Virus record (IMG/VR): IMGVR_UViG_3300011114_000771
Coordinates: 1-26,495 of that record
DNA length: 26,495 bases
Strand: one strand, 5' to 3'
Source of the DNA: a virus
Shown: one piece after another, positions 3,514 through 25,009 of the stretch
How the letters are laid out: every line of letters begins with the position of its first letter
Position numbering within the stretch: position 1 is the first letter of the stretch
Made by a program: the position numbers and the translations under genes
The notes under the pieces: generated by a model
What the model was told of the DNA's origin: nothing
Database searches by the model: none
Seen by the model: only the letters and a program-made list of their open reading frames with translations

Positions 3514-4380
3514 ATGACTACATTTCAAAACGCAGGAGTTTTTATAAATAGCTTTACAGGATTAATAGCTCAAAGCGTAACTATATCAAATTCGAATAAT
3601 TTAATTTCTTCATCTTCTGCTGGTTCTAGAAATGGGACTATGATTCCAAATGGTCCAATAAAAACAGATTTGACTATTGAATATACTCCTAAAATATTAA
3701 GCGACCCAATTTTAAATGAAATTGTAAGCGTTAATAATTCAATAAATTCAAATCAGCTTTATACAGAAAATCAAACTCCATTAGTGGTTCAGGTTTCTAA
3801 CATATCTGGTTCATTTTTTCTATCGAACTTCAAGATAAATATTTCAACGAATAATATAATTAATGCCTCGGTTTCTTTCGTCTCATTTGGTCAAATTTCT
3901 GGCTTTGGCACTGATAGAGCTACTTCGTCCATATCTGCGTCTGAGAGTCAAATAGGACATGCTTGGAGCACTTCCATAGCGGATGACTCATCTACGGAAT
4001 ACAATGTTAATCTTTATGCTGCGGAATATGGGTTTTCGAAAGCTTTGAATCCTATTTATAAATTAGGAAGTAAAGAACCAATACAAGTTTTATGCGGTCA
4101 AATCTCTAGGACTGTTTCTTTTACTTTTGAAAATTTTTATACAGTCGATTATTCAGGGACGCTAATAAGTGATATATTTAATAATAATGGAAACTTAAAA
4201 ATAAGAGGCTATAATTCATTACAGTATAGAGATTCAGAAGACGGATTTGAACCTACGTCAAATGTTTCTGGAGATGAAGTTTTGTTATCAATTAAAAATA
4301 TGAAGATAACAAAGAGTACTACTCCTGTCCAATTCAATGATATTATAAAAACTACGGTTCAAGCAGAATCAATTATATAG
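3514..4380 (+). CDS. Putative phage structural (tail-tube-like) protein, second of three tandem paralogues
   Basis: 288 residues, Ser/Asn/Ile-rich and beta-rich, with no signal peptide or membrane segment. Its layout parallels the gene before it. The first half has TIEYTPKILSDPIL, a strand block SGSFFLSNFKINIS and NASVSFVSFGQISG. The second half has YNVNLYAAEYG, NPIYKLGSKEPIQVLCG and RTVSFTFENFYTVDYSG. The match of PIYKLGSKEPIQVLCG here to PIYGLKRDTPYHVLLG in the first paralogue is the clearest link. An AGGA sequence inside the end of the upstream gene lies 5 bases before the ATG, and the genes are separated by one base, so expression is probably coupled. A virion component is likely from context; the exact role is unknown. 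Confidence 0.75.
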   Translation: MTTFQNAGVFINSFTGLIAQSVTISNSNNLISSSSAGSRNGTMIPNGPIKTDLTIEYTPKILSDPILNEIVSVNNSINSNQLYTENQTPLVVQVSNISGSFFLSNFKINISTNNIINASVSFVSFGQISGFGTDRATSSISASESQIGHAWSTSIADDSSTEYNVNLYAAEYGFSKALNPIYKLGSKEPIQVLCGQISRTVSFTFENFYTVDYSGTLISDIFNNNGNLKIRGYNSLQYRDSEDGFEPTSNVSGDEVLLSIKNMKITKSTTPVQFNDIIKTTVQAESII

Positions 4381-4382
4381 TT

Positions 4383-7037
4383 ATGTTCTATTCCCATAAA
4401 AATATTTTAGCAAAGATAAATTCGGAGGTCATTCTAGCCAATCAATTAGATTTAAATACCTCTGCGGATTTGTCTCCATTATATTTAGATGGGCAAAGAC
4501 ATAGTTTTTCCTATTTTCCAAATGGAGCTGTAAATGGCTCTTTTAGATTAACGTATTTTTTAACTGGAAATGATGTAATAAAACAATACCTTGATGATGA
4601 CGACTACGTTCTCTCAGGTAATATTGGTGGATTATATTTTAATTCTGGATATGTCCGTTCATATAGCGCCTCATTTCAACCAAATTCTCCTATTCAAGTT
4701 AATGCGGAAATATTAGTAGTTGACGCTTTAATGGGACAATTTCTACCGTCAAATATAGAAAATCCTAATCCTAATTATTTAAATGCTAGCGATTCAATTT
4801 TTACTAATTATACTCCTTTCGTTGATATTGGTTCTCCAATTCAAGCTACTTATAACTACACTTCGGAAATAAATCCTATTTTTTATCAAGCTACTGGCAC
4901 TGGATTATTAGAAATAACCCCTTCTAGAGTTATATTTGGAAAAAAACAAGTATCAATGGAGATAGTGTCAGATTCGACTGGAATGTTTTTACCAATCGAT
5001 GGCCAAACTTGTTCATTAAGATTAGAAGCTGCTAATTCAGGAGGATTAGTCATGGAAGTATTTTCTGTAACTGGAAAAATAAACTCAAGAAATTTAAATA
5101 CTTCTATATCTTCACCAATGAATCAAAGATTCGAAGTTATTCAGCATAGAATTGCTTCTAATCCAACTATAACTTCTTTTTCGCCATCTTCTGTGTCAGC
5201 CGGTAGCACTCTTACTATATTAGGAACTAATTTTAAAAACGTCTTAAATGTATACATAAATAATGAGCCAGCAAGTTCTTATCAAGTAATTAGTGATACA
5301 AGAATTGATACAGTTATAGCTCCAAATCAAAATTCTGGATATATTAAAGTAGATACATTTGAAGATAATACTTACTCTAACACAAGGATTCCTATCAATT
5401 ATCCATCTATTAACGTCGATTCGTTTGCTCCTACTAATATTATATCAGGAAATACGGTATACATTAATGGTTCTAATTTCTATAAAATATCTAGAGTTCT
5501 TTTTAATGATAGAGAAGCTTCTTTTAGCATTTTAAATCCAAATATAATTGCTGCTGTTTCTCCGGGAAGAGAATTGAATGGTCCTATTTCTGTAATTTCT
5601 GATTCTAGATATAAGTCAGGAGTCTCTTCAAGTAATTTTTACGCTAAACCTGTAATAGATAGTTTCTACCCTACTACTGGAATTCCGGGAGACATAATTA
5701 CTGTTTCTGGAGCTAATTTTTCAAATATCTTTTTAACTTATATTAATGATATATACGCTCCTTATTCTGTAATAAATACTGGAGTAATTCAATTAACCGT
5801 TCCAAATGGAGATACAAGAGGATATGTAAAAATTATTAATAATGGTTTCCAAATCACAACCTCTAAATACGATTTCTCTCCACAACTTTTTATAACTGGT
5901 TTAAGCATTAAGAGCGGACAGGCTTTTTCATCATTAACTATATCTGGAGTTAATTTTGAAGATTACATGATGTATAACTTAGGGGATGATTCTTATAAAG
6001 TTTCTTTTAATGGTCAAGTGACTGGATTTTCCAGAATAGATGGTCAAACTTTAACAGGTATAGTTCCAAGAGATGCCGTGACTGGTCCATTTTATATATT
6101 TAAATCGGATAGTACATCTACCTATGACTCTACTGGAGATTTCATTTATATTCCAGATGCTCCTATTATAACGTCTAGTTACCCAATTACTATTACTTCT
6201 GGTGATAAACTAACTGAGTTAATAGTAGGAACTAACTTAACTAATTTGACTAAAGTCTCGCTAGTTGGAAGTGGAGCTTCCGCTAATGGTAGGTCTATTA
6301 TAATTTGGGATAAGGCTTATAACGTTAATTCAAAACCGGCTGATACTACTGGGGTTCAATATTTAATATCAACGGCTCAAAATGATTTATTAGGACTAGC
6401 TTCTACGTTTCAGCATACTTTATCTGCTCCATCTAGTTATAGCGGAAATACTTTATTAACTGGACAAGCTATAAGAACTGGAATGTATGATTTAGTAGTA
6501 GAGAATATTGCTGGAACTGGATATCTTAGCGGAGCTTTAGTAATCAATCCTTTAACTAATTTAGCTCAATCAGCAAGTACTAGAATCACTATTACGTCTA
6601 CTTATCCATCTGGAGATACGAATACCTATAATGAATATAAAACAGTAGATAATAATACTGGAACTTATTGTAGAACAAATACCGTAACTGGCCAATGGAT
6701 GAAGTTTAGCTTTCCATCAAAATGCCAAATATTTAATATAAATTTAACTACTCATTCTACTGGCTATACGTTAGGGACGACTGGGTATTTAGAAATTAGT
6801 TTATTAACCGGAACTGGAATTGGAACTGGAATTGTTTCCAGCGGACTAGCCAATATAAGTCCATACACGACATTAAATTCTGGATATGGTATAAATACAG
6901 GTACTCTTTCTTGGAGAAATGAAGCTAACGCTGTATTGATAAGAGTAAATAGAAGAAACGAGTCGGGTCAGGATTTACCTTACCCGCTCGTTCTAAGTAA
7001 TGTAGAAATTTTAGGAATTAAAATGAATCGCTCTTAA
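4383..7037 (+). CDS. Large structural protein: tail-type paralogous N-terminus, IPT/TIG array, discoidin-like C-terminus
   Basis: 884 residues. Residues 1-255 repeat the two-half layout of the two preceding genes (LTYFLTGNDVIK and IQVNAEILVVDALMGQF, then YNYTSEINPIFYQ and LEITPSRVIFGKKQVSMEI). Residues about 260-592 hold four IPT/TIG immunoglobulin-like repeats, each with a P-x-I-x-S/D-F-x-P entry and an I-x-G-x-N-F strand (ILGTNF 279-284, INGSNF 361-366, VSGANF 441-446, ISGVNF 520-525). A fifth, divergent copy (VGTNL) covers about 593-720. The last roughly 160 residues (from about 727) look like a discoidin/F5-8C jelly roll (AQSAS start, WMKFSFP, NVEILGI end). Such domains are typical of exposed adhesive virion parts, so a role in surface binding is inferred. 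The stop overlaps the stop of the opposing minus-strand gene (shared TTAA), leaving no room for a terminator. Confidence 0.85.
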   Translation: MFYSHKNILAKINSEVILANQLDLNTSADLSPLYLDGQRHSFSYFPNGAVNGSFRLTYFLTGNDVIKQYLDDDDYVLSGNIGGLYFNSGYVRSYSASFQPNSPIQVNAEILVVDALMGQFLPSNIENPNPNYLNASDSIFTNYTPFVDIGSPIQATYNYTSEINPIFYQATGTGLLEITPSRVIFGKKQVSMEIVSDSTGMFLPIDGQTCSLRLEAANSGGLVMEVFSVTGKINSRNLNTSISSPMNQRFEVIQHRIASNPTITSFSPSSVSAGSTLTILGTNFKNVLNVYINNEPASSYQVISDTRIDTVIAPNQNSGYIKVDTFEDNTYSNTRIPINYPSINVDSFAPTNIISGNTVYINGSNFYKISRVLFNDREASFSILNPNIIAAVSPGRELNGPISVISDSRYKSGVSSSNFYAKPVIDSFYPTTGIPGDIITVSGANFSNIFLTYINDIYAPYSVINTGVIQLTVPNGDTRGYVKIINNGFQITTSKYDFSPQLFITGLSIKSGQAFSSLTISGVNFEDYMMYNLGDDSYKVSFNGQVTGFSRIDGQTLTGIVPRDAVTGPFYIFKSDSTSTYDSTGDFIYIPDAPIITSSYPITITSGDKLTELIVGTNLTNLTKVSLVGSGASANGRSIIIWDKAYNVNSKPADTTGVQYLISTAQNDLLGLASTFQHTLSAPSSYSGNTLLTGQAIRTGMYDLVVENIAGTGYLSGALVINPLTNLAQSASTRITITSTYPSGDTNTYNEYKTVDNNTGTYCRTNTVTGQWMKFSFPSKCQIFNINLTTHSTGYTLGTTGYLEISLLTGTGIGTGIVSSGLANISPYTTLNSGYGINTGTLSWRNEANAVLIRVNRRNESGQDLPYPLVLSNVEILGIKMNRS
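5160..6158 (+). repeat. Protein-level tandem array of four IPT/TIG domains
   Basis: Residues 260-592 of the 884-aa protein fall into four units of about 80-90 residues beginning near PTITSFSP, PSINVDSFAP, KPVIDSFYP and QLFITGLS, each followed by a G-x-N-F strand. The units have diverged at DNA level, so this is an old domain duplication and not a recent DNA repeat. A fifth weaker unit follows. Confidence 0.75.
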
Positions 7038-7795
7038 GATTTTGCTTTTGATTCTTTTTCTTGAAGTTTTTTACTAATTCTTCCAATAAGGTCAAAGACG
7101 ACGGGTTTTGAAATATCTTCAACACTATTCCAATCTTTGGCTTCTGCAACACCTTCAGAAGTCAATTTTTCTTTTAGAAAGTTAAAAGTAATATTACCCT
7201 TTGCCATCATTTCTTTTAATTTTGGATGAGGGTCTGTAGAAATATCTGGAGAAGCTTCTATTTTATTAGCATCTTCAGTTTTAATTTCTTCTTTAGACAC
7301 GATATTAATTCTTAGGAAATTTCGAACAGCTCTCGCGAAAGCTCGATTTTCAGCTATCGTTGCTAGGTATATATTAGCAAACCCCTCAGTATTATCTTTA
7401 GATGCGTCAGCCATTGATTCAAAGACAATCTCGCTATTAAGCGTCTCGTAGTTTGGAATCCATTTAATGGCGCATTGAGTTGCGACGTAGGATGGATGAG
7501 CCGCCATGCTCTTATACGTCACGGAGCTGAATCCACGAAGAAATGCTAAATATTTAATACCGCTTAAAAGAATAATCAAATTCTCATCTGGAATCTTAGT
7601 AATGTCCGTTTCTTCTGTTTTTGCAGAATTAGGAACTAAATGCTCAGGCTTTAGCATTTTTCGATAATCAACTAATCCTTCTGGAGTAAAAATGTATTCT
7701 ACATCAATTAAAAGACCATGAGAATTTCTTTTGAAAACTCTAGGAGGTACTGGCCCAATTTGGGCTTCTTGGACATTTGACATATCTTGTATCAT
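7034..7795 (-). CDS. Candidate phage single-strand annealing protein (Rad52/Sak-like), unproven
   Basis: 253 residues. The core (75-170) holds a strand/helix block (YVATQCAIKWIPNYETLNS), then FESMADASKDNTEGFANIYL and TIAENRAFARAVRNFL followed by KEE. The stretch of a short acidic or small-residue loop, then A-E-x-R-A-x-A-R-A-x-R and an acidic end is what I associate with phage Rad52/Sak-type annealing proteins and related DNA-metabolism proteins. A Lys/Glu-rich C-terminal helical region (190-253) follows. It is the last gene of the leftward replication operon, 9 bases after the glycosyltransferase gene. The upstream sequence has no clear Shine-Dalgarno. An in-frame ATG at codon 5 is an alternative start. 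If it anneals ssDNA, it would partner the putative ssDNA-binding protein and the nucleases of the same operon. The functional call is tentative. Confidence 0.5.
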   Translation of the reverse strand: MIQDMSNVQEAQIGPVPPRVFKRNSHGLLIDVEYIFTPEGLVDYRKMLKPEHLVPNSAKTEETDITKIPDENLIILLSGIKYLAFLRGFSSVTYKSMAAHPSYVATQCAIKWIPNYETLNSEIVFESMADASKDNTEGFANIYLATIAENRAFARAVRNFLRINIVSKEEIKTEDANKIEASPDISTDPHPKLKEMMAKGNITFNFLKEKLTSEGVAEAKDWNSVEDISKPVVFDLIGRISKKLQEKESKAKS

Positions 7796-7804
7796 AAAGA
7801 GCTA

Positions 7805-8977
7805 TCAGACTTTTGTCAAGAATGCGTGATGGTCTTTCTCTCTATAGAAATTGCTAGAGAATGATGAATCAATAGGCTTGACAGTCGGAGTAAAATTGTC
7901 TACTGGCAAATTCTTTTTCCAAGCTTCCAAACTAGGATATATTTTGCCTTTGGATAAAATAAATTTTCCATTTCTATAATGAGTAGCTAATCCATTTTTA
8001 ATTTCATCTGGAATATCATTATTTTTATCGATAATGAGTCCATAATCCATATAATGAATTTTTAACGAATTTATTGTTTCTTTAGTCTCGTAGCTAATTA
8101 ATATAACCTTAATTCCAATTTTTAATATGTCTCTAATGAAATTAGGGTCATGATTATTAGCTTTAATAATATATACGAATTGATTAATTCTATGCTTAAT
8201 AGATACTAATAAATTGATATTTACAGGAGCATTAGAAACTATCGAGACTTCACTAAGAGAAGCTTGTTGAGCTAACATTTGCTCGTTAAATAGATAGTCC
8301 ATTCTAACGATTACAGAAGTAAGATTTAACTGTCTTAAATCAATGGCTTGGTCAGGAACTAATTCAAGCATTCGACCTTGATACAAAGGACCAGTATAAA
8401 TAGTCTCAAATTCCTTCTTATAATTTAAATTTAATAATTTTGACACAGAATCAACAATAGATTCTGGACTTATTTTATTAATAGATTTTGGATTCTCTTC
8501 TAAAGAATAACTTGGTTTTTCTCCTTCTTTACGTTTTGGTTCTAATAGTATTTGTTTGTCAGTATTACCCCAATAAGGTTTTACGTTATTTATATTATTA
8601 TTACTATATAAAGCAACGATGGGTTTATCATACATTCCCGCTAAATGAGCGATAAAACTATCTACAGCTAAGACCATTATAGAGTTTCTAACTAAAAATG
8701 CACATTGGTTAATATCAGTATGTCCAAGATAATTTATAGCTCCGTTGTATGGTCTTTCTTTTTGCTCTCCTACTTGTAAAATTGAAATTCCAGTTCCTTC
8801 TAATAAAGGAAGAAGGATTTCTAGTACGTCTTGCCAATAATCATAAGTCTTGGCGGGCTTAGAATGCGGATGAAAAACTATATATTTTTCCTTTGATACA
8901 GGAATAAATTTTTCATAAATATATGGTTTTCCTATTTGGACTCCAACATTAGTTGCGTAGGTTTCAATTAAATGCAT
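7805..8977 (-). CDS. C-terminal half of a GT9 (heptosyltransferase-like) glycosyltransferase plus a domain of unknown function
   Basis: 390 residues. Residues 30-190 match the nucleotide-sugar-binding half of GT9 enzymes: YIVFHPHSKPAKTYDYW, an ILQVGEQKE strand, NQCAFLVRNS, then VDSFIAHLAGMYDKPIVALY with D106 and H111. The acceptor-binding N-terminal half is missing here. It is found at the end of the gene directly upstream, which stops one base before this ATG in a different frame (TAA-T-ATG). Translational coupling is likely because no Shine-Dalgarno is seen. Residues about 195-390 alternate predicted strands and helices (SVIVRMDYL, VSIVSN, FVYIIKAN, IKVILISYE) and are not recognised. Donor and acceptor cannot be deduced. 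A single-base error or mutation splitting one gene is the main alternative. Confidence 0.8.
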   Translation of the reverse strand: MHLIETYATNVGVQIGKPYIYEKFIPVSKEKYIVFHPHSKPAKTYDYWQDVLEILLPLLEGTGISILQVGEQKERPYNGAINYLGHTDINQCAFLVRNSIMVLAVDSFIAHLAGMYDKPIVALYSNNNINNVKPYWGNTDKQILLEPKRKEGEKPSYSLEENPKSINKISPESIVDSVSKLLNLNYKKEFETIYTGPLYQGRMLELVPDQAIDLRQLNLTSVIVRMDYLFNEQMLAQQASLSEVSIVSNAPVNINLLVSIKHRINQFVYIIKANNHDPNFIRDILKIGIKVILISYETKETINSLKIHYMDYGLIIDKNNDIPDEIKNGLATHYRNGKFILSKGKIYPSLEAWKKNLPVDNFTPTVKPIDSSFSSNFYREKDHHAFLTKV

Positions 8978-8978
8978 A

Positions 8979-10934
8979 TTAAACTCTCAAATCTTGATAA
9001 GCGATTCTTGTTTTTCCGTTATGAACCCAATTTAACATTCTTTGAGTACCTAAAAATGGTAAAAAGGCTATTTCAAAAAATCCTTTATGATTTCCAATTC
9101 CTTCTAAGTATAAAAGATTATCTAACTCTTGAGAATAAGGAATTATTTTATGAATGTAAGGGTTAGCTACAAACACATCAAAATTAGGCTTCTCAGTAGC
9201 TACATATAGATTAAATTCTGGATACGTATCTTTGATAGATTTAAACAAAGATGTAGACAATATAGCGTCACCAATTCCATTAGGAATTACATATAAAATT
9301 CTCTTACCTTCATCATTTGCGTCTAAATAAGCTTCTATACCATTTTTTTGTTCTGATTGGACCGGCTGACTTTGAATCTGCTTTTTATTTTCATTATCTG
9401 CCGTTTCTCTAAAGAATTGCTCGATTGTTTGTCTTGGAACTCCATTAGATAGTTGATGCATCCAATGCTGATATCCACTATCAGATTCATCAATATCCAT
9501 TATTAGAATATTTTTATATAACTCTTTAACATAATCTGAGTCCCTAAGACCTTGATTTATATTAGCGATTGGATTTTTAGGAACAATGGTTACTTTACTG
9601 TCCCAATCTATTTCAGGTTGACTATCTAAGAATTCTTCTATCTGCTTTCCAATACTATTAATCGAAAAATTTTCTACAGCCCAAATTCTACTAAGTCTAG
9701 ACATCTCATCTTTCTTATCTTTCGACATCGTATAAACTAGCTGAATCGAATCCGCAATTGATTCTTTTAAAGTGGTAGCTTTTATGAATTGAGTTTCAAA
9801 TTCTCTATACTCTTCCCATTCTAACGGGATAGAACAAGCCTCATGCTTACACATTTCAACGCCACATGAATAATTAGTAACTAATGTTATCAATCCAGCG
9901 AGTTTAGCTTCTTGAATTGGAATTTCCTGCCCTCCTGAAGTAAATGGATGGCAATAGACATTCATTAAATTATATACTTCATTTAATTCATTTTCAGTAA
10001 CTCCATTACTAAGATTAGCCGTACACATTGACTTCGGCTGATTACAAGCTCTACAAGCCTTCTCCTCTCCATCGAATGGTCTTACATGATAGTGACTACA
10101 ATTCCTGCATACATACGTAGCGTATATATCATTTAGGTCAACTCCATTTTGAGAAGCTAGACTTGGAATATTCCAGCCCTCTGAGAAACAGGTATGTAAT
10201 AGAAGTCCAGATTTCTGATTAGGGTTCTTATCTTTCCAAATTTTATAGCCAGCAATAAGATTAGGAATAGATTTTCTTAATTGATTTCTAAATACGAAAC
10301 CGATTAAAAATCTATCAGATTCTATGTTATGATAGTTTCTTAACGCTAATTTTCTATCTTCGTTAAAAGGATAAAAGAATGAAGTATCAATAGCTCCATG
10401 AACCGTTTTTACGTGATTATGACCTAACCTATGCATTTCATCAGTAGCGAACGAACTCCACATCCAATAGTTTTTGATTTTTGGAGCTTGGCTTACAGCA
10501 TTAGGAAGTAGAGGTAAAGAATCTAATGTCGTCCAAATAACAGAATTGATTTTATTAAACCAAGGCTTATCGATAGAATAATCAACGCCCCAGATGTCCT
10601 GAACTCCAAAATAGAAGTCAGGCTTTTCACTTAGAATTACTTTATCCAAGTTATAAGCTCCATACCACATGGAGCGAATTATTCTCTCCTTATCTCCACC
10701 CTCTGCATTACGAGTAACGCTATTAACCTCCTGTTGATTGTAGGGCATAGCGCCGACAGATTTCCATGGTGTTTTAGCTAAGTCTGGTAGGACATCAACA
10801 ACGTGACAGCTATAATGGACAATATCATACTTTCCAGTCTTGTATAAATATGACAATAAAGCCTTTGCGTTTCTCCCGAATCCAGTTTTAGCCAACGAGA
10901 AATCACTATGAAAAACTATCTTTTTCTTACGCAT
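8979..10934 (-). CDS. Multidomain glycosyltransferase: GT4-like, zinc-knuckle insert, DUF4214, N-terminal half of GT9
   Basis: 651 residues. Residues 1-435 are GT-B/GT4-like: KKIVFHSDFSLAKTGFGRNA at the N-terminus, HGAIDTSFFYP, then LIGFVFRNQLRKSIPNLIAGY and SGGQEIPIQEAKLAG with E342 as the second Glu of the E-x7-E motif. The first Glu position is Gly. Inserted at 276-304 is a C-x2-C...C-x2-C knuckle (C276, C279, C294, C297). Residues about 462-513 match DUF4214 (DSDYVKELYKNIL, SGYQHWMHQLSNG). Residues 544-651 are the N-terminal half of a GT9 domain (RILYVIPNGIGDAILSTSLF), which ends at the stop codon while its partner half starts in the next gene. The protein sits between the putative SSB gene and the split GT9 gene. 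The target of glycosylation is unknown. Confidence 0.85.
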   Translation of the reverse strand: MRKKKIVFHSDFSLAKTGFGRNAKALLSYLYKTGKYDIVHYSCHVVDVLPDLAKTPWKSVGAMPYNQQEVNSVTRNAEGGDKERIIRSMWYGAYNLDKVILSEKPDFYFGVQDIWGVDYSIDKPWFNKINSVIWTTLDSLPLLPNAVSQAPKIKNYWMWSSFATDEMHRLGHNHVKTVHGAIDTSFFYPFNEDRKLALRNYHNIESDRFLIGFVFRNQLRKSIPNLIAGYKIWKDKNPNQKSGLLLHTCFSEGWNIPSLASQNGVDLNDIYATYVCRNCSHYHVRPFDGEEKACRACNQPKSMCTANLSNGVTENELNEVYNLMNVYCHPFTSGGQEIPIQEAKLAGLITLVTNYSCGVEMCKHEACSIPLEWEEYREFETQFIKATTLKESIADSIQLVYTMSKDKKDEMSRLSRIWAVENFSINSIGKQIEEFLDSQPEIDWDSKVTIVPKNPIANINQGLRDSDYVKELYKNILIMDIDESDSGYQHWMHQLSNGVPRQTIEQFFRETADNENKKQIQSQPVQSEQKNGIEAYLDANDEGKRILYVIPNGIGDAILSTSLFKSIKDTYPEFNLYVATEKPNFDVFVANPYIHKIIPYSQELDNLLYLEGIGNHKGFFEIAFLPFLGTQRMLNWVHNGKTRIAYQDLRV

Positions 10935-10938
10935 TATA

Positions 10939-11565
10939 TTAGAATGTTACAGTGTCGTCTGAAGTGGGTTGTTCGCCAGCAGCAAAATCTGGTTCTTGAG
11001 AAGGCTCTGCGCTGTCGCTAGGTTCTGGGCTTTCTAATGGAGCAGGAGCAGGGGTATTATTCTTTCCCTTTTCTCTGTATTGGTCTTGCTTTCTTTGCTC
11101 ATTTAATAAAATAGTCCTAACTCCAACTAAAAGAGCATTCTTTAAAAGAACGGATTCTCCAAAAGTAAATCCGATAGCATAATTAGCCTTTTGTTGACTA
11201 TTATCCTTTGGATTTTCTGAAATTTGAAAAGAAAAGCCAAGTTGTTTCTCTACCTTAGTTGCGTTATCTAATCTTACATAAGGCTCAAATACAATTTTTA
11301 CATACTTATTTTTAGCTTGATTATCATGAAGAGTGTTCCAATTAACATTTCTCTCCATTGCGTCAATCATTCCACAAGCTTCAGTGGCATTAATTTTTAC
11401 GTTAATCTCTTTTCCAACTTGCTTCCTATTCCCAGAAAAAGCTCCCTTCTTTTCTTGTCCAGCCTGAGCTTGTTTAAGCAATGTAGCTATGAATGCGTCG
11501 CCAACCAATTTGATTGAGAAGGCATGACCCGTATTATTCTTATTTGGTTTATATAGCTGTATCAT
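10939..11565 (-). CDS. Putative single-stranded DNA-binding protein with an SSB-like acidic tip
   Basis: 208 residues. The core (1-160) is beta-rich and basic in places (GHAFSIKLVGDAFIATLLKQ, INVKINATEACGMIDAMERN, YVKIVFEPYVRL, YAIGFTFGESVLLKNALL). From about 165 a Pro/Glu/Ser-rich, low-complexity linker leads to a terminal TSDDTVTF. An acidic tail ending in a hydrophobic-aromatic tip is the hallmark of bacterial SSB (DDDIPF) and of T7-type ssDNA-binding proteins, where it docks replisome partners. I do not see a canonical SSB OB-fold motif, so the core could be another ssDNA-binding fold. The gene lies 16 bases after the polymerase III alpha core gene and 4 bases before the GT4-like gene. 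The function is inferred from the tail and the neighbours. Confidence 0.6.
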   Translation of the reverse strand: MIQLYKPNKNNTGHAFSIKLVGDAFIATLLKQAQAGQEKKGAFSGNRKQVGKEINVKINATEACGMIDAMERNVNWNTLHDNQAKNKYVKIVFEPYVRLDNATKVEKQLGFSFQISENPKDNSQQKANYAIGFTFGESVLLKNALLVGVRTILLNEQRKQDQYREKGKNNTPAPAPLESPEPSDSAEPSQEPDFAAGEQPTSDDTVTF

Positions 11566-11581
11566 ATTGTGCGATTATTGA

Positions 11582-14185
11582 TTAATTAATTATACCTACT
11601 TTTTCGTCTTTTTCAATTTTTTCTAAATCTTTCGTTAATTCTCCAAGTTTAATATAAATCTTATTGTCTTCTGTATGAACCATATTCGCGAATACGGCAT
11701 CACCTTGTTTTTTGCCAGAGACATAAACTATATTATTTTCATTTGGTAACTTATCTCCATTGATAGACTTAATCTCATCAATAGTATCACCAAAAGAAAG
11801 AACCGTTATCGTTCCGGTCTCATCAGCAATAGTAAGCTTAAGGTATTTTTTACCTTTTTTGCTATTACTTACTAATTGGTCTACAACTTTACCAACGAAT
11901 CTTACTTCTGTTTTTAATGGAGCATTAACGACCTCTTCAACGTACTTGAGAAATTTGTATTTTTCAGAGAATACGTCTTTGAGCTTCTTACCGCAACTAT
12001 AACCCATCAATTTTTGTTCATAGTACCAATTAGCGAATTCTTCGTTTCTAGAATTAAGTTCATAGATTTTCTTATACGGCTCATACTTCTTTTTTATAGT
12101 AGCTAGCCTAGAAGGCTTAACGAACGGTTTACCTTTTTCATCCATCTTAGTAGTAAGGTCTTTAAGAAGAAGGACTATATTAAAATTGTGAGCTTGTCCA
12201 AAAAGAGCCATCGCTTGTTTTTCTTTATCAGATAGAATATTATAGAGTTGAGCTTCTAATACCGTATAGCTTCTATATTCTCGATAGGACTCAAATGCTC
12301 CCGCTTGTATTAATGCAGATAGCACGCTAATTGATAATCCCGCCTCTTCCGCAGCTTGGAATATTTGAAATTTAGTTTTTTGAGCTTCGTTACCTTTGAA
12401 TATTTTAAGCTTCTCGATTGAACTATCGCTAATCCCCTTAATGAAATGAAGACCAAATCTAATATTATTATTCTCAAGGGAGAAGTCCATTTCTGACTTA
12501 AATATATCAGGAGGTAAAATACGAATACCGAAATGACCAATCTCTTGTCCAATTTTAGTAATTTCAGCCCTAGGGTCTGGCTCATGCTTTGTCATCTTGA
12601 GAAGAGACAAAAAGAATTGATGAGGATACTGGAACTTAAGATAAACAGTTAAAGCTGAAAGACTTGCATAAGAAATTGAATGAGATTTATTAAATGAGTA
12701 ATTTGCACTGTCTTCAGCAATTTTCCAAATTACATCAATAATTCCATTATCTAATTTATTTTCAGCAATCTTATCAATAATCTTCTGCTTCCAAAGCTTC
12801 ATTTCTTCAGGTTTTTTCTTACCTACAATTCTTCTTACCGTCTCTCCTTCTTCAGCAGAGAACCCAATCTTTCTAATAGCAGAAATTAATTGCTCTTGAT
12901 ATAGACATTGACCACCAGTAACACCAAAGATATCATCAAAGAATGGATGAATCGACTTAGCCGTTCCTGTGTTAGTAAAAGAAGCGTACTCGTCCAAAAA
13001 TTGCATAGCTCCCGGTCTAGCAATAGCTAGCACTCCGCTTAACTCTTCTAGATTCTTTGGCTTAATCTTCTTTAACGAACTAAATGCAGTATCAGCTTCG
13101 ATTTGGAAAATTCCATGTGGAGACTTTAAATCTTGGAGCGATTGATAAATAATAGGGTCCGTTAAATCTATCTCTGTCATTTTCTTACCAATAGCTTTAC
13201 ATGCATCATCAACAACAGATACGCTTCTAAGCCCAAGACAATCAAGTTTAACATTAATTAAACTTACCCATTCCATATCAAATCCAGAAACAATATTTTT
13301 ATCACTTGACAATTCTACTGGGCAATTTTCTTGAAGTTCTCCATAGGAAAGGAGAATACCAGAAGGATGGACGCCTTTATTCTTAATTAAATCTCTAAGT
13401 TTTAGAGCAATTTTATAGACTTCTTTATTTTCGTCGCACCATTCTTTAAACTCTGGAACTATTTCGTAAGCTTCGTGAATGTCTTTCACTTTACCAAATA
13501 CTTTTGGAATCATTCCAGCTACATTTATCATTTCTGTCTCTGATTTATTTCCAGCGACTTTTCCACATTCTTTAATAAGAAGTTTTCCGCTTAAGCTATT
13601 CAACGTTAGAATTTTCGCAGTCTTGCCTTTGAACGTAGTATCAAGAAACTCCAAAACCTCATGGCGGCGATAATAACAAATATCCATGTCAACATCGCAC
13701 ATAAGAGAACCGTCGAGATAAGTAATACCATCAACTACTTTCTTTTTAGCTCGCGTCTTGGAAATAAAACGCTCAAAGAATAATCCATATTTAATTGGGT
13801 CAACTTTAGTAACACCAATTAGAAATAATACCAAACTACCAGCCGCAGAGCCACGACCTAGACCAACGGGAATATCTTTCTTTTTACAGAAGTTCATTAC
13901 TAACCAAACAAGCAAAATATAATCTGTGAATCCAAGTTCAGATATCGTATCTAATTCCCGCTTAACCCTTTCACCATATTCTTGATACTCAGAAGACCCT
14001 TTAGTTAAATTAAGTTCTCTAAATCCATTCAAGCATAGTTTTCTTAGAAATTCATAATTAGTGCATTTTGAAAGATTTAGTTTAGTGAGTTCTTCTGCTG
14101 GGATTGAAAATTCGGGAAGTCTAACGCCATGAATTTGCAAGTCATAAGACTCAAAAGAGTCTATGGTATCAAGATATTGATGCAT
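11582..14185 (-). CDS. dnaE: DNA polymerase III alpha subunit, core without PHP domain (C family)
   Basis: 867 residues, shorter than typical DnaE (about 1100-1200) because the PHP domain is absent. The protein begins where the palm region of DnaE begins (residues 24-60 resemble the P-x-F linker). Then come ELGFTDYILLVW, PVGLGRGSAAGSLV (106-119) and CDVDMDI, whose D166 and D168 match the catalytic D-x-D. KLDCLGLR at 313-320 has the third catalytic aspartate, D315. ARPGAM, YQEQLI, RRIVGKKKPEEM and YSFNKSHSISYA of the fingers follow, then a helix-hairpin-helix region and an OB fold (about 758-850). The C-terminal tau-binding domain appears to be missing. The complementary PHP domain is encoded by a separate gene 1.3 kb upstream (15506-16267). 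The catalytic residues are intact, so this should be the phage replicative polymerase. Confidence 0.95.
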   Translation of the reverse strand: MHQYLDTIDSFESYDLQIHGVRLPEFSIPAEELTKLNLSKCTNYEFLRKLCLNGFRELNLTKGSSEYQEYGERVKRELDTISELGFTDYILLVWLVMNFCKKKDIPVGLGRGSAAGSLVLFLIGVTKVDPIKYGLFFERFISKTRAKKKVVDGITYLDGSLMCDVDMDICYYRRHEVLEFLDTTFKGKTAKILTLNSLSGKLLIKECGKVAGNKSETEMINVAGMIPKVFGKVKDIHEAYEIVPEFKEWCDENKEVYKIALKLRDLIKNKGVHPSGILLSYGELQENCPVELSSDKNIVSGFDMEWVSLINVKLDCLGLRSVSVVDDACKAIGKKMTEIDLTDPIIYQSLQDLKSPHGIFQIEADTAFSSLKKIKPKNLEELSGVLAIARPGAMQFLDEYASFTNTGTAKSIHPFFDDIFGVTGGQCLYQEQLISAIRKIGFSAEEGETVRRIVGKKKPEEMKLWKQKIIDKIAENKLDNGIIDVIWKIAEDSANYSFNKSHSISYASLSALTVYLKFQYPHQFFLSLLKMTKHEPDPRAEITKIGQEIGHFGIRILPPDIFKSEMDFSLENNNIRFGLHFIKGISDSSIEKLKIFKGNEAQKTKFQIFQAAEEAGLSISVLSALIQAGAFESYREYRSYTVLEAQLYNILSDKEKQAMALFGQAHNFNIVLLLKDLTTKMDEKGKPFVKPSRLATIKKKYEPYKKIYELNSRNEEFANWYYEQKLMGYSCGKKLKDVFSEKYKFLKYVEEVVNAPLKTEVRFVGKVVDQLVSNSKKGKKYLKLTIADETGTITVLSFGDTIDEIKSINGDKLPNENNIVYVSGKKQGDAVFANMVHTEDNKIYIKLGELTKDLEKIEKDEKVGIIN

Positions 14186-14197
14186 ATTTATTTTAAC

Positions 14198-14395
14198 TTA
14201 TTCTTCTAACTGGTTCTGTAAATCAAATAGTAAATTTTGAAAAAGTTGTTTCGATTTCTTATTTGGGATATTTAGATAAATATTCGCATTAGCCTTTTTA
14301 CTTCTCTTTCCTCTTCTTAGAGCTATGATAATATAATCGATTTTATCTTTTTTTAAGTTTTGTGAGATATCTTCAATAAAATCTAAGCTTGCCAT
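14198..14395 (-). CDS. Small basic protein of unknown function in the polymerase operon
   Basis: 65 residues, not recognised. The N-terminus is an amphipathic helix-like stretch (MASLDFIEDISQNLKKD), followed by a strand (YIIIALRRGKRSKKANANIYL) with a basic cluster, then a C-terminal helix (SKQLFQNLLFDLQNQLEE). It fills the gap between the exonuclease and polymerase core genes with 18- and 12-base spacers, is on the same strand, and has no competing frame. That placement makes it a likely real gene. The basic patch and the position next to the polymerase core suggest a DNA- or polymerase-associated role, but nothing shows it directly. No Shine-Dalgarno is seen. Confidence 0.65.
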   Translation of the reverse strand: MASLDFIEDISQNLKKDKIDYIIIALRRGKRSKKANANIYLNIPNKKSKQLFQNLLFDLQNQLEE

Positions 14396-14413
14396 ACAAG
14401 CTATTTTACACGA

Positions 14414-15049
14414 TTAAATGTCTACTCTAAACTTTAGTTTATCCCAGACCTCTTTATTGACCTTCAAATCGTATAAGGCATCGTGCAACATATTCTCATC
14501 AAAGGTAATTCCGTTCTCTTCCGCAGTTAATTTAAGATTACTTTTTAAACCTTTTTGCCTAATATTAATCATTCTATATTGATATTCTAAAAAATTATCT
14601 GCTGGATTATATGGAATATTTAATTTGATTCCTTTAACAATTGCATTAGTATCTATGAATTTATTAGAAAGTCTTCTTGGGTCTTTGCCAAACATCTTAT
14701 ACATTTCATAGATAAGAAAAATATCGAATCCAAGAACATTATGACCAATAATATACTCGCTATTTTCTAGTATTGGATATATTTGAGCAAACGCCTGTTC
14801 TGGAGATGTTCCTAATGTATCCACTTTTTCTTGTGAGTATCTAGTAATTCTCGCCGCATCTTCACTAATCTTTAATTCAGTATCCCATTTTATAAGGATA
14901 TCAAGAGAGTCTACAATGTTCTCTCCCACTACATCCAAAACGGCTATCTGCCAAGGAAGATTATGACAGTAATTTAGACATAGATTCAATGTCTCACAAT
15001 CGATAAAACAAAGTTTTACGTCTTTTCTAAAACGAATTAGTTCTTTCAT
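14414..15049 (-). CDS. DnaQ-like DEDDh 3'-5' exonuclease (likely proofreading subunit)
   Basis: 211 residues, the usual size of a stand-alone epsilon-type exonuclease domain. Exo I is CFIDCETLN with D17 and E19. Exo II is IIGHNVLGFDIFLI with D109. Exo III is LHDALYDLKVNKEVW with H189 and D194 in H-x4-D spacing, which gives the full DEDDh set. In bacteria such proteins remove misincorporated 3' nucleotides as part of the polymerase III core. Here the gene lies between the two genes that together encode polymerase III alpha, so it is the obvious proofreader for that enzyme, the more so since the separate PHP domain looks inactive. Its ATG overlaps the TGA of the upstream nuclease gene (ATGA), suggesting coupling. 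Confidence 0.92.
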   Translation of the reverse strand: MKELIRFRKDVKLCFIDCETLNLCLNYCHNLPWQIAVLDVVGENIVDSLDILIKWDTELKISEDAARITRYSQEKVDTLGTSPEQAFAQIYPILENSEYIIGHNVLGFDIFLIYEMYKMFGKDPRRLSNKFIDTNAIVKGIKLNIPYNPADNFLEYQYRMINIRQKGLKSNLKLTAEENGITFDENMLHDALYDLKVNKEVWDKLKFRVDI

Positions 15050-15516
15050 TTAAAATTATCTTCTCTAATAATAATGTCTGATAGCAAATCTCTATTAACT
15101 ATATACCCAAGAGTTTCATAATGCGGATTTCTGATATACTTGGATTCTACCATATTCCTACTATGCAACAACTCAACCCTCTCAACAAGCTTTTTCGGAG
15201 AAAACCAGAAGAAATGTTTCTGCTTTATGAATAAATAAACGAAATAGTCGATATTATCGTTTGAAGCTCTCCAAGGACCACCAAATTTTTTCTTTGAAAT
15301 ATTACCATAATGTTCTATAAATAGATTAGGAGTTTTATTTATATCGTATGAGTCTGTTTTTATTTCTACCGTTTTTCCATCTTTAAGAATAATGTCTTCT
15401 ATCTTACCGTCTCCTTTACTTGGATTTAAATCTTTGTATAATTTAATAAATAGGTCTTCACCGCTATTACCAACATTTAATTGTTCTTTAAATCCAAATA
15501 TTTTTTTATGAGACAT
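15046..15516 (-). CDS. PD-(D/E)XK-fold nuclease
   Basis: 156 residues from MSHKKIFGFKEQLNVGNSGE. The catalytic pattern is GNSGEDLFIKLY (E20), IEDIILKDGKTVEIKTDS with D41 and E51-x-K53, then a helix. This is the E...D...E-x-K core of restriction-endonuclease-like and resolvase-like nucleases. Trp/Phe-rich strands (YFVYLFIKQKHFFWF) follow. The start at 15516 was chosen over an upstream in-frame ATG at 15648 because AAAGGA lies 4 bases before it and the longer version would run 140 bases back through the PHP-domain gene. The overlap with that gene is 11 bases. A structure-specific or end-processing role in replication or recombination is inferred from the operon; the substrate cannot be predicted. 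Confidence 0.8.
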   Translation of the reverse strand: MSHKKIFGFKEQLNVGNSGEDLFIKLYKDLNPSKGDGKIEDIILKDGKTVEIKTDSYDINKTPNLFIEHYGNISKKKFGGPWRASNDNIDYFVYLFIKQKHFFWFSPKKLVERVELLHSRNMVESKYIRNPHYETLGYIVNRDLLSDIIIREDNFK

Positions 15517-16267
15517 CAATTCCTTTCGGGTTTTGTTCCCTCCATGAATCCATACAAAATTCATCGGATGACATAAACTCAAGCTCTGGCTTATCCAGAC
15601 TGCTTCTATTATTAATACACCTAAATGTAAGATAAGCTTTAAAGTCACGCTTATTCTTATAGTAGATGCTTTTAGCAGGAATAACTAGTTTATCCTTGAT
15701 TCTATCTTGAATTAAGTTATCGAATGGTAAGTAATTATCTTCGTAAACGTATTTTGGCTCAGTAAAATTAAAAACAGGTACGCAAACATTTGATGTCAGG
15801 ATGTTCTTATAAATATAAGAGTCATAAAAAGGAATCCATAAATCTAAGTCGTTATCGTTCCAGTGTTCTTTCAACCATTCGCAAGAAGTCCTAGGCGCGT
15901 AATAAAATCCGTCCGTAGCGGCTTTGGAGTATATTTTAATTAACTTTTTATATCCATTGTAATTTTTAGCAACAACGATTACCTTATGTTCTTTAGATAA
16001 AGATTCTTCAGTCTTATCAGAAGCGTCACTAACACATATCATTCTTATTCCGAAAGTTAATTTAATTCCAGCGTCGGTTAAATTTTTAGACGCTTCAATA
16101 AATCCAGAAAAGGAATCATCGATGAGGACAACCCTTTTGAGATTGTTTTCAATTGCTATATCAACGATAGAATCAGAGCCGTTGGCTTCAGACGAACCCT
16201 TTTTCGCTAAAGTAAGAATTGACCTGCCTATAGAGAAGTGACTCTTAAAGAGTGGGATAGTATTCAT
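15506..16267 (-). CDS. Stand-alone PHP domain of DNA polymerase III alpha, apparently without an intact metal site
   Basis: 253 residues that match the first quarter of DnaE: FKSHFSIGRSIL at 7-18 (canonical L-H-x-H-S-x-Y-S), IVDIAIENNLKRVVLIDD at 34-51 (canonical A-x-x-x-x-G-x-x-x-A-L-T-D-H), GIKLTFGIRM, then IVVAKNYNGYKKLIKIYSKA at 97-116. PAKSIYYKNKRDFKAYL and FMSSDEFCMDS close the protein at exactly the point where DnaE passes from PHP into its palm linker. The first His of the H-x-H motif is Lys8 and the His after T-D is Asp51, so PHP metal-dependent nuclease activity is unlikely and a structural role, such as docking the exonuclease or stabilising the core, is more plausible. The polymerase core is encoded separately at 11582-14185. 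The start overlaps the upstream stop (TAATG). Confidence 0.85.
   Translation of the reverse strand: MNTIPLFKSHFSIGRSILTLAKKGSSEANGSDSIVDIAIENNLKRVVLIDDSFSGFIEASKNLTDAGIKLTFGIRMICVSDASDKTEESLSKEHKVIVVAKNYNGYKKLIKIYSKAATDGFYYAPRTSCEWLKEHWNDNDLDLWIPFYDSYIYKNILTSNVCVPVFNFTEPKYVYEDNYLPFDNLIQDRIKDKLVIPAKSIYYKNKRDFKAYLTFRCINNRSSLDKPELEFMSSDEFCMDSWREQNPKGIDVS
15521..15526 (-). promoter_or_regulatory. Ribosome binding site AAAGGA that fixes the PD-(D/E)XK gene start
   Basis: AAAGGA on the minus strand, 4 bases before the ATG at 15516, inside the 3' end of the PHP-domain gene. It supports the short 156-residue product over the 200-residue reading from 15648. Confidence 0.55.
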
Positions 16268-17256
16268 TAAAAATTGATTGGCTTATTGAACGCTGGACAT
16301 CCAGCATACTCCATAGGAAATATCTTATTTTCATCTGTCTCTGTCAACTCATCTTTTTCGAAAGCTGAAGCTATGATTTTTCCATCTTTATTTTTGAGCA
16401 CGTAATATGAGAATTTAAACTTACACTCGCATCCCCATACAAGTTCTCCATTTTCTTTAGTCTCGCCCGGATATTTATTTCTTCCGCAGAGCCAATATTT
16501 TTCTTTGTTATGGAAAGCCATTTTTGTTTTAGCTTTCTTTTCGTCAAAGTTCTTTATTATCTCAGCAATATATGATAGATACGCCTCAAATCCAATTAGT
16601 TGATTTTCAGTACATTGAGGAGCGTGTTGAATAGCTTTCTTGGGGAATCTTAAAAAGAGAAAAGTAACTTTTGGAATTACTCCTTCTGTTTTATAACAAG
16701 CTAAAGAATACATGTAATTTTGCAGATTATTATTTAACTCCTCTTCGGAGAAAACCTTCTTACTCGTTTTGTAATCGAATATTCTTACTTGTTTGTTTTT
16801 ATATTTAGCTTGTTTATCAATAAATCCATTAACGATAAATGAATCGCACTCTAAAAAGAACTCTTTTTCCGCGTGAAGCTCTTCATGTCCTTCGCAATAA
16901 AAATCATTTTTTAGACCGATATCGACCATGCTATGGATTAATGATAAATCTTCATCATTGTATATACCTAATTTCTTAGCGTTTTTATCAACAAGTTTTT
17001 TCATTGACTTGCATGAAGCAAGACCATTCTTAGATATATTATCAAAATGTTTTCTATGACTTGGCTTTATCAATACTTCGAAAACGACATGGGAGACGGT
17101 TCCTCTTTTAGCTCCAGAGTTACTTAGTTGAGGTAACTTTAGAATATAATTACAGTAATATTTCCATGTGCAATCATCTAACGTTTTAATTTTAGATGCA
17201 GAAAGCTTTGGCTTTTCAGATAACTGATTGCTTTTTTGTTTTGAAGTTGTAGACAT
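16267..17256 (-). CDS. RecB/Cas4-like PD-(D/E)XK exonuclease with a possible Fe-S cysteine set
   Basis: 329 residues. The RecB-family nuclease motifs are in order: KLSASKIKTLDDCTWKYYC (17-35), GTVSHVVFE with H56, NGFIDKQAKY with D147, IFDYKTSKK with D161 and K163, then the Q-x-x-x-Y motif (LQNYMYSLACYK). Cysteines lie at C29 and C35 near the N-terminus and at C257, C276, C278 and C320 near the C-terminus. One N-terminal plus three C-terminal Cys is the arrangement that holds a 4Fe-4S cluster in Cas4 and AddB, so a cluster is possible here. There are no cas genes or CRISPR in the window; the context is phage recombination. The ATG lies 41 bases inside the end of the DUF2493 gene, with AAGG 5-6 bases upstream. 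A role in DNA end resection is inferred. Confidence 0.85.
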   Translation of the reverse strand: MSTTSKQKSNQLSEKPKLSASKIKTLDDCTWKYYCNYILKLPQLSNSGAKRGTVSHVVFEVLIKPSHRKHFDNISKNGLASCKSMKKLVDKNAKKLGIYNDEDLSLIHSMVDIGLKNDFYCEGHEELHAEKEFFLECDSFIVNGFIDKQAKYKNKQVRIFDYKTSKKVFSEEELNNNLQNYMYSLACYKTEGVIPKVTFLFLRFPKKAIQHAPQCTENQLIGFEAYLSYIAEIIKNFDEKKAKTKMAFHNKEKYWLCGRNKYPGETKENGELVWGCECKFKFSYYVLKNKDGKIIASAFEKDELTETDENKIFPMEYAGCPAFNKPINF

Positions 17257-21610: not shown

Positions 21611-22591
21611 TCAAGATTTTATAACGTTTTCAAAACATTTAACGATAGACATTTCCATCTCTTTGTTGCTGTAAGGAAGAGCGGATTCATAACAATCTCG
21701 CTGAAAAATTGAGGGAGCTTTATTATAAGCATCGATTATCCCATTAACGTCATAGGTGAAGAACCCATTGACTCCTTGTTTAATTAAGCTTGGCCAGAAT
21801 CCGATATTTGTCGTTACAATTGGAGTCCCAACGCTTAAAGCTTCGATAGCAGAGAGATTAAATGGAGTAGGCCAATTATGGACTAAAGAATATAATCTAG
21901 CTTTTTTCGTAAAATGCATTTTTGTATCTTCGTCTATTTGACCAAGATAAAACGTATTTACATTATTTATGTATTTTAACAATGGATAATCAGGATTAAT
22001 TGGACCAGCAAAATATGCTTTTATTCCAGCTTGATTACATGCATACGCGACCTCAATAGAACAGAATTCTGGACAATGCCTAGTGCATTGAAAAATAAAA
22101 TTAGACTTTTCTCTCTCTACAAAATCTTCTATAGGCTTACCTAGGACGAATTTATGAATTTTAGTCTTTAGTCCTCCTTTTATCTTAGGGTGTTGATAAT
22201 CATTGTATATCATTAAGTGCTCTTGACATTCATGAATATCTTCGTTATAGCCAACAGACCAAACAATATATTTAGCTTTTAATCCAGTTAAATTTAATTT
22301 TACATTAGTATAGCAACTAACAATAATATCATAATTAGCTAATTCTGGAATAAGATTAATTATTGGGTATCCTTGTAAAGCTAAATCTCTTTTATCTTTA
22401 GAGAAAAAGTGGAAGGCTTCTTTTCTATCTTCCTTAGATATATTATTAGCACATTCTTCAGCACAAAAGATATCAAACCATTCGTGCTGTTTTAATAAAC
22501 TAGCGAAAATTCTTCCTCCTCCATATCTTTTCGGCTTTAATGCGTAGTCTTCAAAAAGAGGAACATAAAAATCTAAATATGCAACTTTCAT
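21611..22591 (-). CDS. GT4-like glycosyltransferase
   Basis: 326 residues with a GT-B layout. The N-terminal Rossmann half starts MKVAYLDFYVPLFEDYALKP with a GGGR turn (24-27). The C-terminal half has VNTFYLGQIDEDTKMHFTKKA, LYSLVHNWPTPFNLSAIEALSVGTPIVTT, and a VNGFF loop. The second Glu of E-x7-E is present in SAIEAL; the first appears to be Thr. Several Cys and His residues occur between 160 and 190 (CTRHCPEFC). The enzyme is expected to move a sugar from a nucleotide donor; neither donor nor acceptor can be read, but the GDP-sugar genes directly upstream make a GDP-6-deoxyhexose donor plausible. The start lies one base after the stop of the GDP-mannose dehydratase gene (TAA-A-ATG), with no Shine-Dalgarno. 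Confidence 0.82.
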   Translation of the reverse strand: MKVAYLDFYVPLFEDYALKPKRYGGGRIFASLLKQHEWFDIFCAEECANNISKEDRKEAFHFFSKDKRDLALQGYPIINLIPELANYDIIVSCYTNVKLNLTGLKAKYIVWSVGYNEDIHECQEHLMIYNDYQHPKIKGGLKTKIHKFVLGKPIEDFVEREKSNFIFQCTRHCPEFCSIEVAYACNQAGIKAYFAGPINPDYPLLKYINNVNTFYLGQIDEDTKMHFTKKARLYSLVHNWPTPFNLSAIEALSVGTPIVTTNIGFWPSLIKQGVNGFFTYDVNGIIDAYNKAPSIFQRDCYESALPYSNKEMEMSIVKCFENVIKS

Positions 22592-22592
22592 T

Positions 22593-23729
22593 TTAATTTT
22601 CTAGGTCGTTGGTTATCATTCTATCAACTAATTGATTGAAAGAGATTTTAGGGAGCCAGTTTAATTCTTGTCTAGCTTTGGTGCTATCTCCTAATAATAA
22701 ATCTACTTCAGCGGGTCTAAAAAGATTGGAGTCAATTGTTATTAGAATATACTCCTTACCTTTATAGTCTAGAATTAAATGTTCATTAGTCCCCGCCCCA
22801 CTCCAATAAAAACGACATCCACTAAACGCTTTTCCGACCGTCAGCTCAACAAATTCTCTAACAGCATGAGTCTCATTAGAAGAAAGAACGTATTCTTTAA
22901 TATTCTTAGATAGCCATTTATTGACAGCAAAAGAAGGCCAGACTTCATTTGGAGAATTTACTGGAAATTGTTTATCTAGCTTCTCAGACAATTCCTTATT
23001 ATAAACATCTTGATTAAGCATCTTCCATATACCGTCAACGAAATCATAAGCGTGACTCCAATCTCTTCTAGAGTCTAAATTACCAAGTGCCAATGGTTCA
23101 TAATTAATGTTGTTGTCTATCTTTTTCTTTATAGAAGCTATATTTTTAGTAATTCTTCTAGTGACGAATGTATCTCCCCTACGTTCGGACTCATGATTAA
23201 AAAGAGCTCCTTGAATGGCATATAGGTCATAACTCTCTCTATAGACCTTTGTTATATGCCTCGCAGCGGCTTTAGCAGCTCCATAGGGAGACCTTGGCCT
23301 TAATGGATGGGTTTCGTCTTGTGGAACCTTTACAACGTCCCCAAACTCCTCAGAACTACCAGCATTATAGAATCTACATTCTGGCGCATATTTTCTAATA
23401 GCTTCTAATATTCTCAATACTCCAGTGGCATCTATATCGAATGTTTGCTCCGGGACTCTCCAACTTTCATGGACGTGAGACTGAGCTGCTAAATTAATAA
23501 AATACGATGGATTATATTGTTGTACTATATTATTAATAGAATGAGAATCCCCTAAATCTCCGCTAATAATCTTAAAACGAGGATTATCAATTGATGTTTT
23601 TAAATTTGAATAGTTCGGATTGGATACTCTTCTAACTACTCCGTATATAATAAACTCAGTATTCTTTAATAAATAGTCAACCATCAAACTTCCATCTTGC
23701 CCGGTTACGCCAGTAACGATAACATTCAT
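22593..23729 (-). CDS. gmd: GDP-mannose 4,6-dehydratase
   Basis: 378 residues, the usual length. An extended short-chain dehydrogenase: the NAD(P) glycine motif is GVTGQDGS (7-14), then GVVRR and LAAQSHVHESW. The active site is AGSSEEFG with S125 and E126/E127, and SPYGAAK with Y149 and K153. NHESERRGDTFVTRRI (178-193) is diagnostic for GMD. It converts GDP-D-mannose to GDP-4-keto-6-deoxy-D-mannose, the branch point to fucose, rhamnose, perosamine and colitose. No fucose synthetase or reductase gene is in the window. The next sugar enzyme, encoded just upstream, is a PLP enzyme that should act on this product. The ATG has no Shine-Dalgarno and follows a 7-bp hairpin. All catalytic residues look intact. 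Confidence 0.95.
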   Translation of the reverse strand: MNVIVTGVTGQDGSLMVDYLLKNTEFIIYGVVRRVSNPNYSNLKTSIDNPRFKIISGDLGDSHSINNIVQQYNPSYFINLAAQSHVHESWRVPEQTFDIDATGVLRILEAIRKYAPECRFYNAGSSEEFGDVVKVPQDETHPLRPRSPYGAAKAAARHITKVYRESYDLYAIQGALFNHESERRGDTFVTRRITKNIASIKKKIDNNINYEPLALGNLDSRRDWSHAYDFVDGIWKMLNQDVYNKELSEKLDKQFPVNSPNEVWPSFAVNKWLSKNIKEYVLSSNETHAVREFVELTVGKAFSGCRFYWSGAGTNEHLILDYKGKEYILITIDSNLFRPAEVDLLLGDSTKARQELNWLPKISFNQLVDRMITNDLEN

Positions 23730-23730
23730 A

Positions 23731-23752
23731 TCTGTTTATATTGAAAAACAGA
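23731..23752 (-). promoter_or_regulatory. Hairpin directly upstream of the gmd start
   Basis: TCTGTTT (23731-23737) and AAACAGA (23746-23752) form a perfect 7-bp stem with an 8-base loop in the 36-bp gap between the PLP-enzyme gene and gmd. It ends one base before the gmd ATG, where a ribosome binding site would be expected, and no Shine-Dalgarno is seen. It could limit gmd translation or mark an RNA end. It is AT-rich and lacks the following U-run of a strong terminator. Confidence 0.35.
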
Positions 23753-23765
23753 CTGATTTTAAAGT

Positions 23766-25007: not shown

Positions 25008-25009
25008 AT

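Follow-up and report, generated by a model that had tools for sequence, protein, structure and literature searches.

The DNA analyzed here is a virus record from IMG/VR (IMGVR_UViG_3300011114_000771), a single metagenomic fragment of 26,495 bases that we refer to, at its full length, as the window. Its minus strand encodes the alpha subunit of DNA polymerase III (Pol III) in two non-adjacent genes. One codes for a stand-alone DnaE-type PHP domain of 253 aa that has lost its metal ligands (positions 15506-16267), and the other for a DnaE catalytic core of 867 aa, without PHP, that comprises palm, thumb, fingers, HhH, and OB regions (11582-14185). Both open reading frames (ORFs) lie where an earlier note, made by a model from the letters alone, had placed them. 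Across a large lineage of uncultured aquatic phages, this split is fixed, and the gene of a DnaQ-like exonuclease invariably separates the two parts. We consider it likely that a gene fission produced a two-chain alpha in which the PHP protein acts as a catalytically dead scaffold for the core and the exonuclease, although the assembly of these chains is something we infer. The replicase of these phages must then probably be put together from parts that form one chain in bacteria.

The PHP protein is complete and lacks a metal site

The 253-aa protein is confirmed to be a complete DnaE-type PHP domain. It matches the Pfam PHP family at 2.9e-12, its NCBIfam matches are all alpha subunits of Pol III, and its only credible sequence relatives in the PDB are the DnaE of Thermus and, by profile, PolC. 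The AlphaFold2 model of the protein has a predicted local distance difference test (pLDDT) score of 89 and a predicted TM-score (pTM) of 0.87, and its Foldseek matches 1 to 19 in the PDB are Pol III alpha or PolC, with TMq up to 0.76. Profiles, structural relatives, and fold thus all agree with the earlier reading of this protein as a DnaE-like PHP domain. The option of a generic phosphoesterase is disfavored by the family, the fold, and the lost ligands, and generic PHP enzymes match it weakly. The domain is also uninterrupted, the exonuclease being encoded separately and not inserted into it as in PolC.

When the phage proteins are aligned with active PHPs, the positions of the HHDHEH[C/H]DH metal ligands are found to be substituted, and the invariant columns of the phage alignment contain no histidine. 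Since the metal-binding positions are lost, an enzymatic role of the protein is unlikely. The motifs PFYDS, SI.Y, and DF are conserved, and the median ratio of nonsynonymous to synonymous substitution rates (dN/dS) is 0.10 over 33 pairs, against 0.05 for DnaQ and 0.06 for the core. Hence, the PHP protein has lost its metal site yet is under purifying selection. The PHP proteins of a second subclade of the lineage are barely recognized by Pfam.

The catalytic core begins at the linker between PHP and palm

The 867-aa protein is predicted to be a C-family (DnaE-type) polymerase. Pfam identifies DNA_pol3_alpha (1.9e-55), the finger domain (3.5e-27), and HHH_6 (1.2e-15) in it; the OB match is weak (0.0018, below the cut-off), and the OB region of Thermus DnaE aligns. 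The alignment with the latter protein starts at Thermus residue 386 (1.1e-75). The AlphaFold2 model (pLDDT 88.9, pTM 0.84) has its first helix at residues 2-13, and its Foldseek matches 1 to 19 are again Pol III alpha or PolC. The chain terminates right after the OB region, and at its other end no complete locus shows an N-terminal PHP domain.

The closest single-chain relatives are those of fecal phage contigs and a Lachnospiraceae DnaE; they have 1140-1173 aa and the same domains in one ORF. Alignment with single-chain phage DnaE places the break after residue ~260 of ~1160, in the linker between PHP and palm, where the helix closing the PHP domain begins. This bears out the claim that the core starts at the linker and carries the triad of catalytic aspartates; across 43 relatives, D166, D168, and D315 do not vary. 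Together, the PHP protein and the core amount to 1120 aa, and therefore little or nothing is missing relative to single-chain DnaE.

Beyond the homologous region, the break has ~10 extra residues on the PHP end and ~15 on the start of the core. We found no intein halves at this point, there being too little room on either end, and an intein at the break, of which the earlier note had seen no motif either, was rejected. The cores of two relatives, L099 and L167, provide the contrast. A split intein of typical form interrupts them at the conserved motif YSFNK|SHS, with an N-half of about 90-95 residues beginning with CLSEDT in the first ORF and a C-half of about 38 residues ending in HNFYAEGIVTSN in the second. 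In these loci (L099:3726-6698 and L167:7630-10629), the core occupies two ORFs some 30 nt apart. Because the split intein further divides the core, these phages would build alpha from three genes.

A few other relatives have added domains on either side of the break. In L148 (1751-3067) and L155, the PHP protein has an extra C-terminal domain that resembles phrog_18407 and has a homologue (47% in L148) in L019, where it is a cargo protein of its own. In L266, the core (4251-7580) has ~250 extra N-terminal residues. Given these additions and the few extra residues elsewhere, the termini of PHP and core at the break are free chain ends. The idea that the extra domains of L148 and L266 form one family linking PHP and core is unsupported (BLAST E value of 6.3).

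The split is shared by a whole lineage

Searches seeded with the core or the PHP protein retrieved 305 loci from viral contigs and from one contig of a Flavobacteriaceae metagenome-assembled genome (MAG). These include repeats: the 252 loci in which all ORFs are complete represent 150 distinct sequence sets, which fall into 89 clusters at 90% core identity. In 283 out of 283 complete loci, PHP, DnaQ, and core each have an ORF of their own, arranged in this order on one strand, and none of the 283 has a fused PHP-core. The survey of related phages that the earlier note had proposed thus reveals the same split across the lineage. Since several searches started from the core alone, the pattern was not produced by searching for PHP. 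Fifteen contigs, 97-178 kb long, each encode a single PHP and a single core. We found no complete PHP within the core or elsewhere in these long relatives, a negative that is less certain for the second subclade, whose family model is too weak.

In the core tree, the 43 split representatives all group in one clade (support 0.999), outside of which lie the single-chain phage and bacterial DnaE. The monophyly of this clade indicates that the split is a derived gene fission that was fixed before the lineage diversified. A fused ancestor within the lineage was sought and not found, nor was one reached from L178, the divergent member in the Flavobacteriaceae MAG. Among the isolated phages of INPHARED, tblastn identified none with the form seen in the window, all matches being below 60% identity, and the DnaE of the other phage records that we examined is single-chain or split differently.

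DnaQ is constant and the other intervening genes are not

The DnaQ-like exonuclease of the window (211 aa, 14414-15049, minus strand) matches RNase_T at 2e-12 and phrog_192 at 8e-23. All its DEDDh residues (D17, E19, D109, H189, and D194) are invariant. The DnaQ proteins have 211-215 aa and end ~17-20 aa past the last motif, without a long C-terminal tail. Their gene lies between PHP and core in each of the 283 complete loci, so the tie between the exonuclease and the two-gene alpha that had been drawn from the window alone extends to the lineage.

Two further ORFs of the window lie between PHP and core, both on the minus strand. The earlier note had counted three intervening genes, and these ORFs are indeed present; its DnaQ-like assignment was confirmed, and its PD-(D/E)XK label for the gene at 15046-15516 comes from a motif reading (GED...VEIK), with no match in Pfam. 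This nuclease-like gene matches phrog_13596, a family of unknown function, at 1.1e-5. The first start codon of its ORF, a GTG at 15648, overlaps PHP by 143 nt, and translation more likely begins at the ATG at 15516. Across the relatives, PHP and DnaQ abut in 47 of the 89 clusters and are separated by complete cargo genes of 0.3-2.3 kb in the remaining 42, while PHP, DnaQ, and core all abut in 27. The cargo includes a cupin, several nuclease-like families, an IMP dehydrogenase, and a SET domain protein, as well as a putative LAGLIDADG-like protein, kinase, and radical SAM protein whose labels were read from the sequence only. The junction between PHP and DnaQ is an insertion hotspot, with very different genes from one relative to the next. 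Because the cargo is diverse, replaced, or absent in relatives and DnaQ is constant, the nuclease-like gene of the window is incidental. The constant unit consists of PHP, DnaQ, and core only, and the other intervening genes are mostly interchangeable cargo.

The interval between DnaQ and core contains a small ORF of 65 aa in the window (14198-14395), with no match in Pfam or PHROG. Its relatives, of 65-112 aa and beginning with MASLDF, occur in 27 of the 89 clusters (e.g., L004:5946-6200 and L007:9650-9901). Going by place and size alone, this ORF could encode a small polymerase subunit.

Proposed assembly of the polymerase and competing explanations

We propose that a gene fission at the linker between PHP and palm divided alpha into two chains, and that this state became fixed in the ancestor of the lineage. 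The PHP protein would bind the core where its fused counterpart sits in bacterial alpha, and the first helix of the core would restore the linker helix. The PHP protein would then be a non-enzymatic scaffold that stabilizes the core and docks the exonuclease, with DnaQ presumably in charge of proofreading, such that polymerase, exonuclease, and scaffold might form a three-chain core analogous to the bacterial alpha-epsilon complex. The role of scaffold is suggested by the lost metal site, the low dN/dS, the presence of PHP in every complete locus, the intact DEDDh residues of DnaQ, and bacterial precedents. In bacteria, the loss of PHP metal ligands has been reported alongside a separate exonuclease, and the alpha of Escherichia coli depends on its inactive PHP domain to be stable and active (PMC3666897). 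The C-terminal helix of epsilon packs on PHP (PMC4703070), and structures of a chimera of the E. coli PHP domain and epsilon have been solved (4gx8/4gx9). The stronger form of the proposal, in which an obligate, lineage-wide, three-chain C-family replicase relies on the free, dead PHP to dock a tail-less DnaQ onto a PHP-less core, has in our view somewhat better than even chances.

Three observations weigh against this proposal. Mutual information with average product correction (MI-APC) gave 4.1 residue pairs with z>5 per 10,000 between PHP and core and 3.0 between PHP and the RecB-like control, a comparison of 85 paired genomes (~55 effective) that does not separate the two protein pairs. 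Since the long C-terminal tail is absent, the predicted docking of the phage DnaQ must be of another kind than that of E. coli epsilon. Finally, a reverse-strand cassette of 2-2.7 kb with large, glycine-rich genes resembling tail fibers lies between DnaQ and core in L126, L143, and L148, and therefore co-transcription of PHP, DnaQ, and core is not universal.

Among the other explanations, the one we take most seriously, while still judging it unlikely, is that the stand-alone PHP acts by itself, as a nuclease or phosphatase, or acts on the host replisome, and that the core works without it. The protein has its own gene next to that of a RecB-like nuclease, factors for host take-over are frequent in phages, and the model of the core is confident by itself. 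Yet the loss of the metal positions makes an enzyme improbable, and the relatives of the protein in sequence and fold are the PHP domains of DnaE and PolC. Moreover, PHP precedes DnaQ and core in every complete locus and is present in every single-chain phage DnaE with an aligned N-terminus. The same loss of the metal site could mean that the fission left PHP as a remnant in decay, as could its faster evolution and the poor recognition of the second subclade by Pfam. We regard this as very improbable, because dN/dS is well below 1 in the 33 pairs and the complete loci retain a full-length ORF with its conserved motifs.

It is just as hard to maintain that an ordinary single-chain alpha arises after all, through ligation of the chains after translation (trans-splicing by a split intein) or through a frameshift or ribosome bypass. 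Cyanobacterial DnaE is joined in this way by a split intein, and L099 and L167 have one within the core. At the break itself, the extra residues are too few for intein halves like theirs, complete genes intervene between PHP and DnaQ in nearly half of the clusters, in addition to DnaQ itself, and some of the ends that would have to be joined carry extra domains (L148, L155, and L266). An artefact, through misassembly of the contig or a frameshift in sequencing, has a negligible probability: although the window by itself is but one metagenomic fragment, and two-ORF records of DnaE elsewhere (e.g., in phage phiST) may be frameshifts, the same arrangement recurs in many independent metagenome contigs with distinct sequences, and the parts are separated by whole genes. 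This explanation was rejected.

Genomic context of the polymerase genes

The polymerase genes belong to a replication block on the minus strand of the window, which reads RecA-like, HNH-type, DnaB, primase, SLOG/DprA-like, RecB-like, PHP, cargo, DnaQ, small ORF, and DnaE core. The RecB-like exonuclease of the PD-(D/E)XK type (16267-17256, PDDEXK_1 at 2.3e-14) is a conserved neighbor directly upstream of PHP, the stop codon of its gene overlapping the PHP start codon as TAATG. Most relatives encode, immediately downstream of the core, a conserved protein, of 208 aa in the window (10939-11565), which from its place could resemble a clamp or bind single-stranded DNA. No beta clamp was identified by Pfam in the 15 long contigs or in seven from the second subclade.

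Genes read as glycosyltransferase, GDP-mannose dehydratase-like, and aminotransferase-like flank the replication block (21611-25969 and 7805-10934) and suggest a modification of surface sugars. Within 20 nt upstream of the 14 gene starts of the window between 7795 and 21580, there is no Shine-Dalgarno-like 4-mer. This absence, together with the relative L178 in a Flavobacteriaceae MAG, suggests that the host of the phage belongs to Bacteroidota.

Significance and comparison with known systems

In bacterial replicases that no longer have PHP nuclease activity, the PHP domain is thought to play a structural role and to position the exonuclease, and its fusion to the polymerase hampers tests of this idea. 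Here, putative scaffold, proofreader, and polymerase come in three natural genes, so that the scaffold can be added, omitted, or swapped. If the three-chain assembly is correct, PHP becomes an exchangeable subunit, and the lineage a natural test of PHP function in Pol III. The lineage also shows that the fission of an essential replicase can be stable in an entire group of phages with no intein involved.

The earlier note knew split DnaE only from intein-mediated cases, which does not hold, since the Microbacterium phages of cluster EF (AnnaSerena gp56/gp57, JingleBells) likewise have separate PHP and catalytic chains without an intein. Their two-gene DnaE is mentioned in one sentence (PMC7302621), the only literature on split phage DnaE that we found, subscription papers being outside the search. 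DnaE splits in phages therefore have a precedent, but the records and papers searched contained no case of a PHP subunit common to a whole lineage in which DnaQ always lies between PHP and core. In the EF phages, the two genes (345 + 767 aa) lie side by side with 10 nt between them, the break comes later, after the linker helix, and the PHP has the metal motif that the lineage of the window lacks. As the EF core groups with a fused DnaE from a Mycobacterium phage, the EF split is an independent fission, and fission at the linker between PHP and palm occurred at least twice in phages.

Other two-gene alphas differ in where they are broken. In Escherichia phage Ro157lw (795+198 aa) and Cellulophaga phage phiST (525+673 aa), the break between two adjacent ORFs is inside the catalytic core; the ORFs nearly touch, and these splits are possibly frameshifts. 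The RefSeq annotation of phiST lists no gene at the DnaE locus (L334:41632-45229). The cyanobacterial DnaE is also encoded by two genes, with a different break point and halves ligated by a split intein, which is absent from the phage break.

PolC offers another parallel, in that PHP, exonuclease, and polymerase make one functional unit, as predicted for the phage proteins. PolC is one chain whose PHP is interrupted by the exonuclease, whereas the phage has an intact PHP and three separate genes. The bacterial Pol III alpha of E. coli and Thermus, with its DnaQ/epsilon, shares with the phage proteins all the core domains, the PHP fold, and the catalytic aspartates. The differences are that the phage PHP is a separate product, that its DnaQ is without the long PHP-binding tail, and that its core ends after the OB region. 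With E. coli in particular, the phage system appears, from its sequence motifs, to share the pairing of an inactive PHP with an active-type DEDDh exonuclease.

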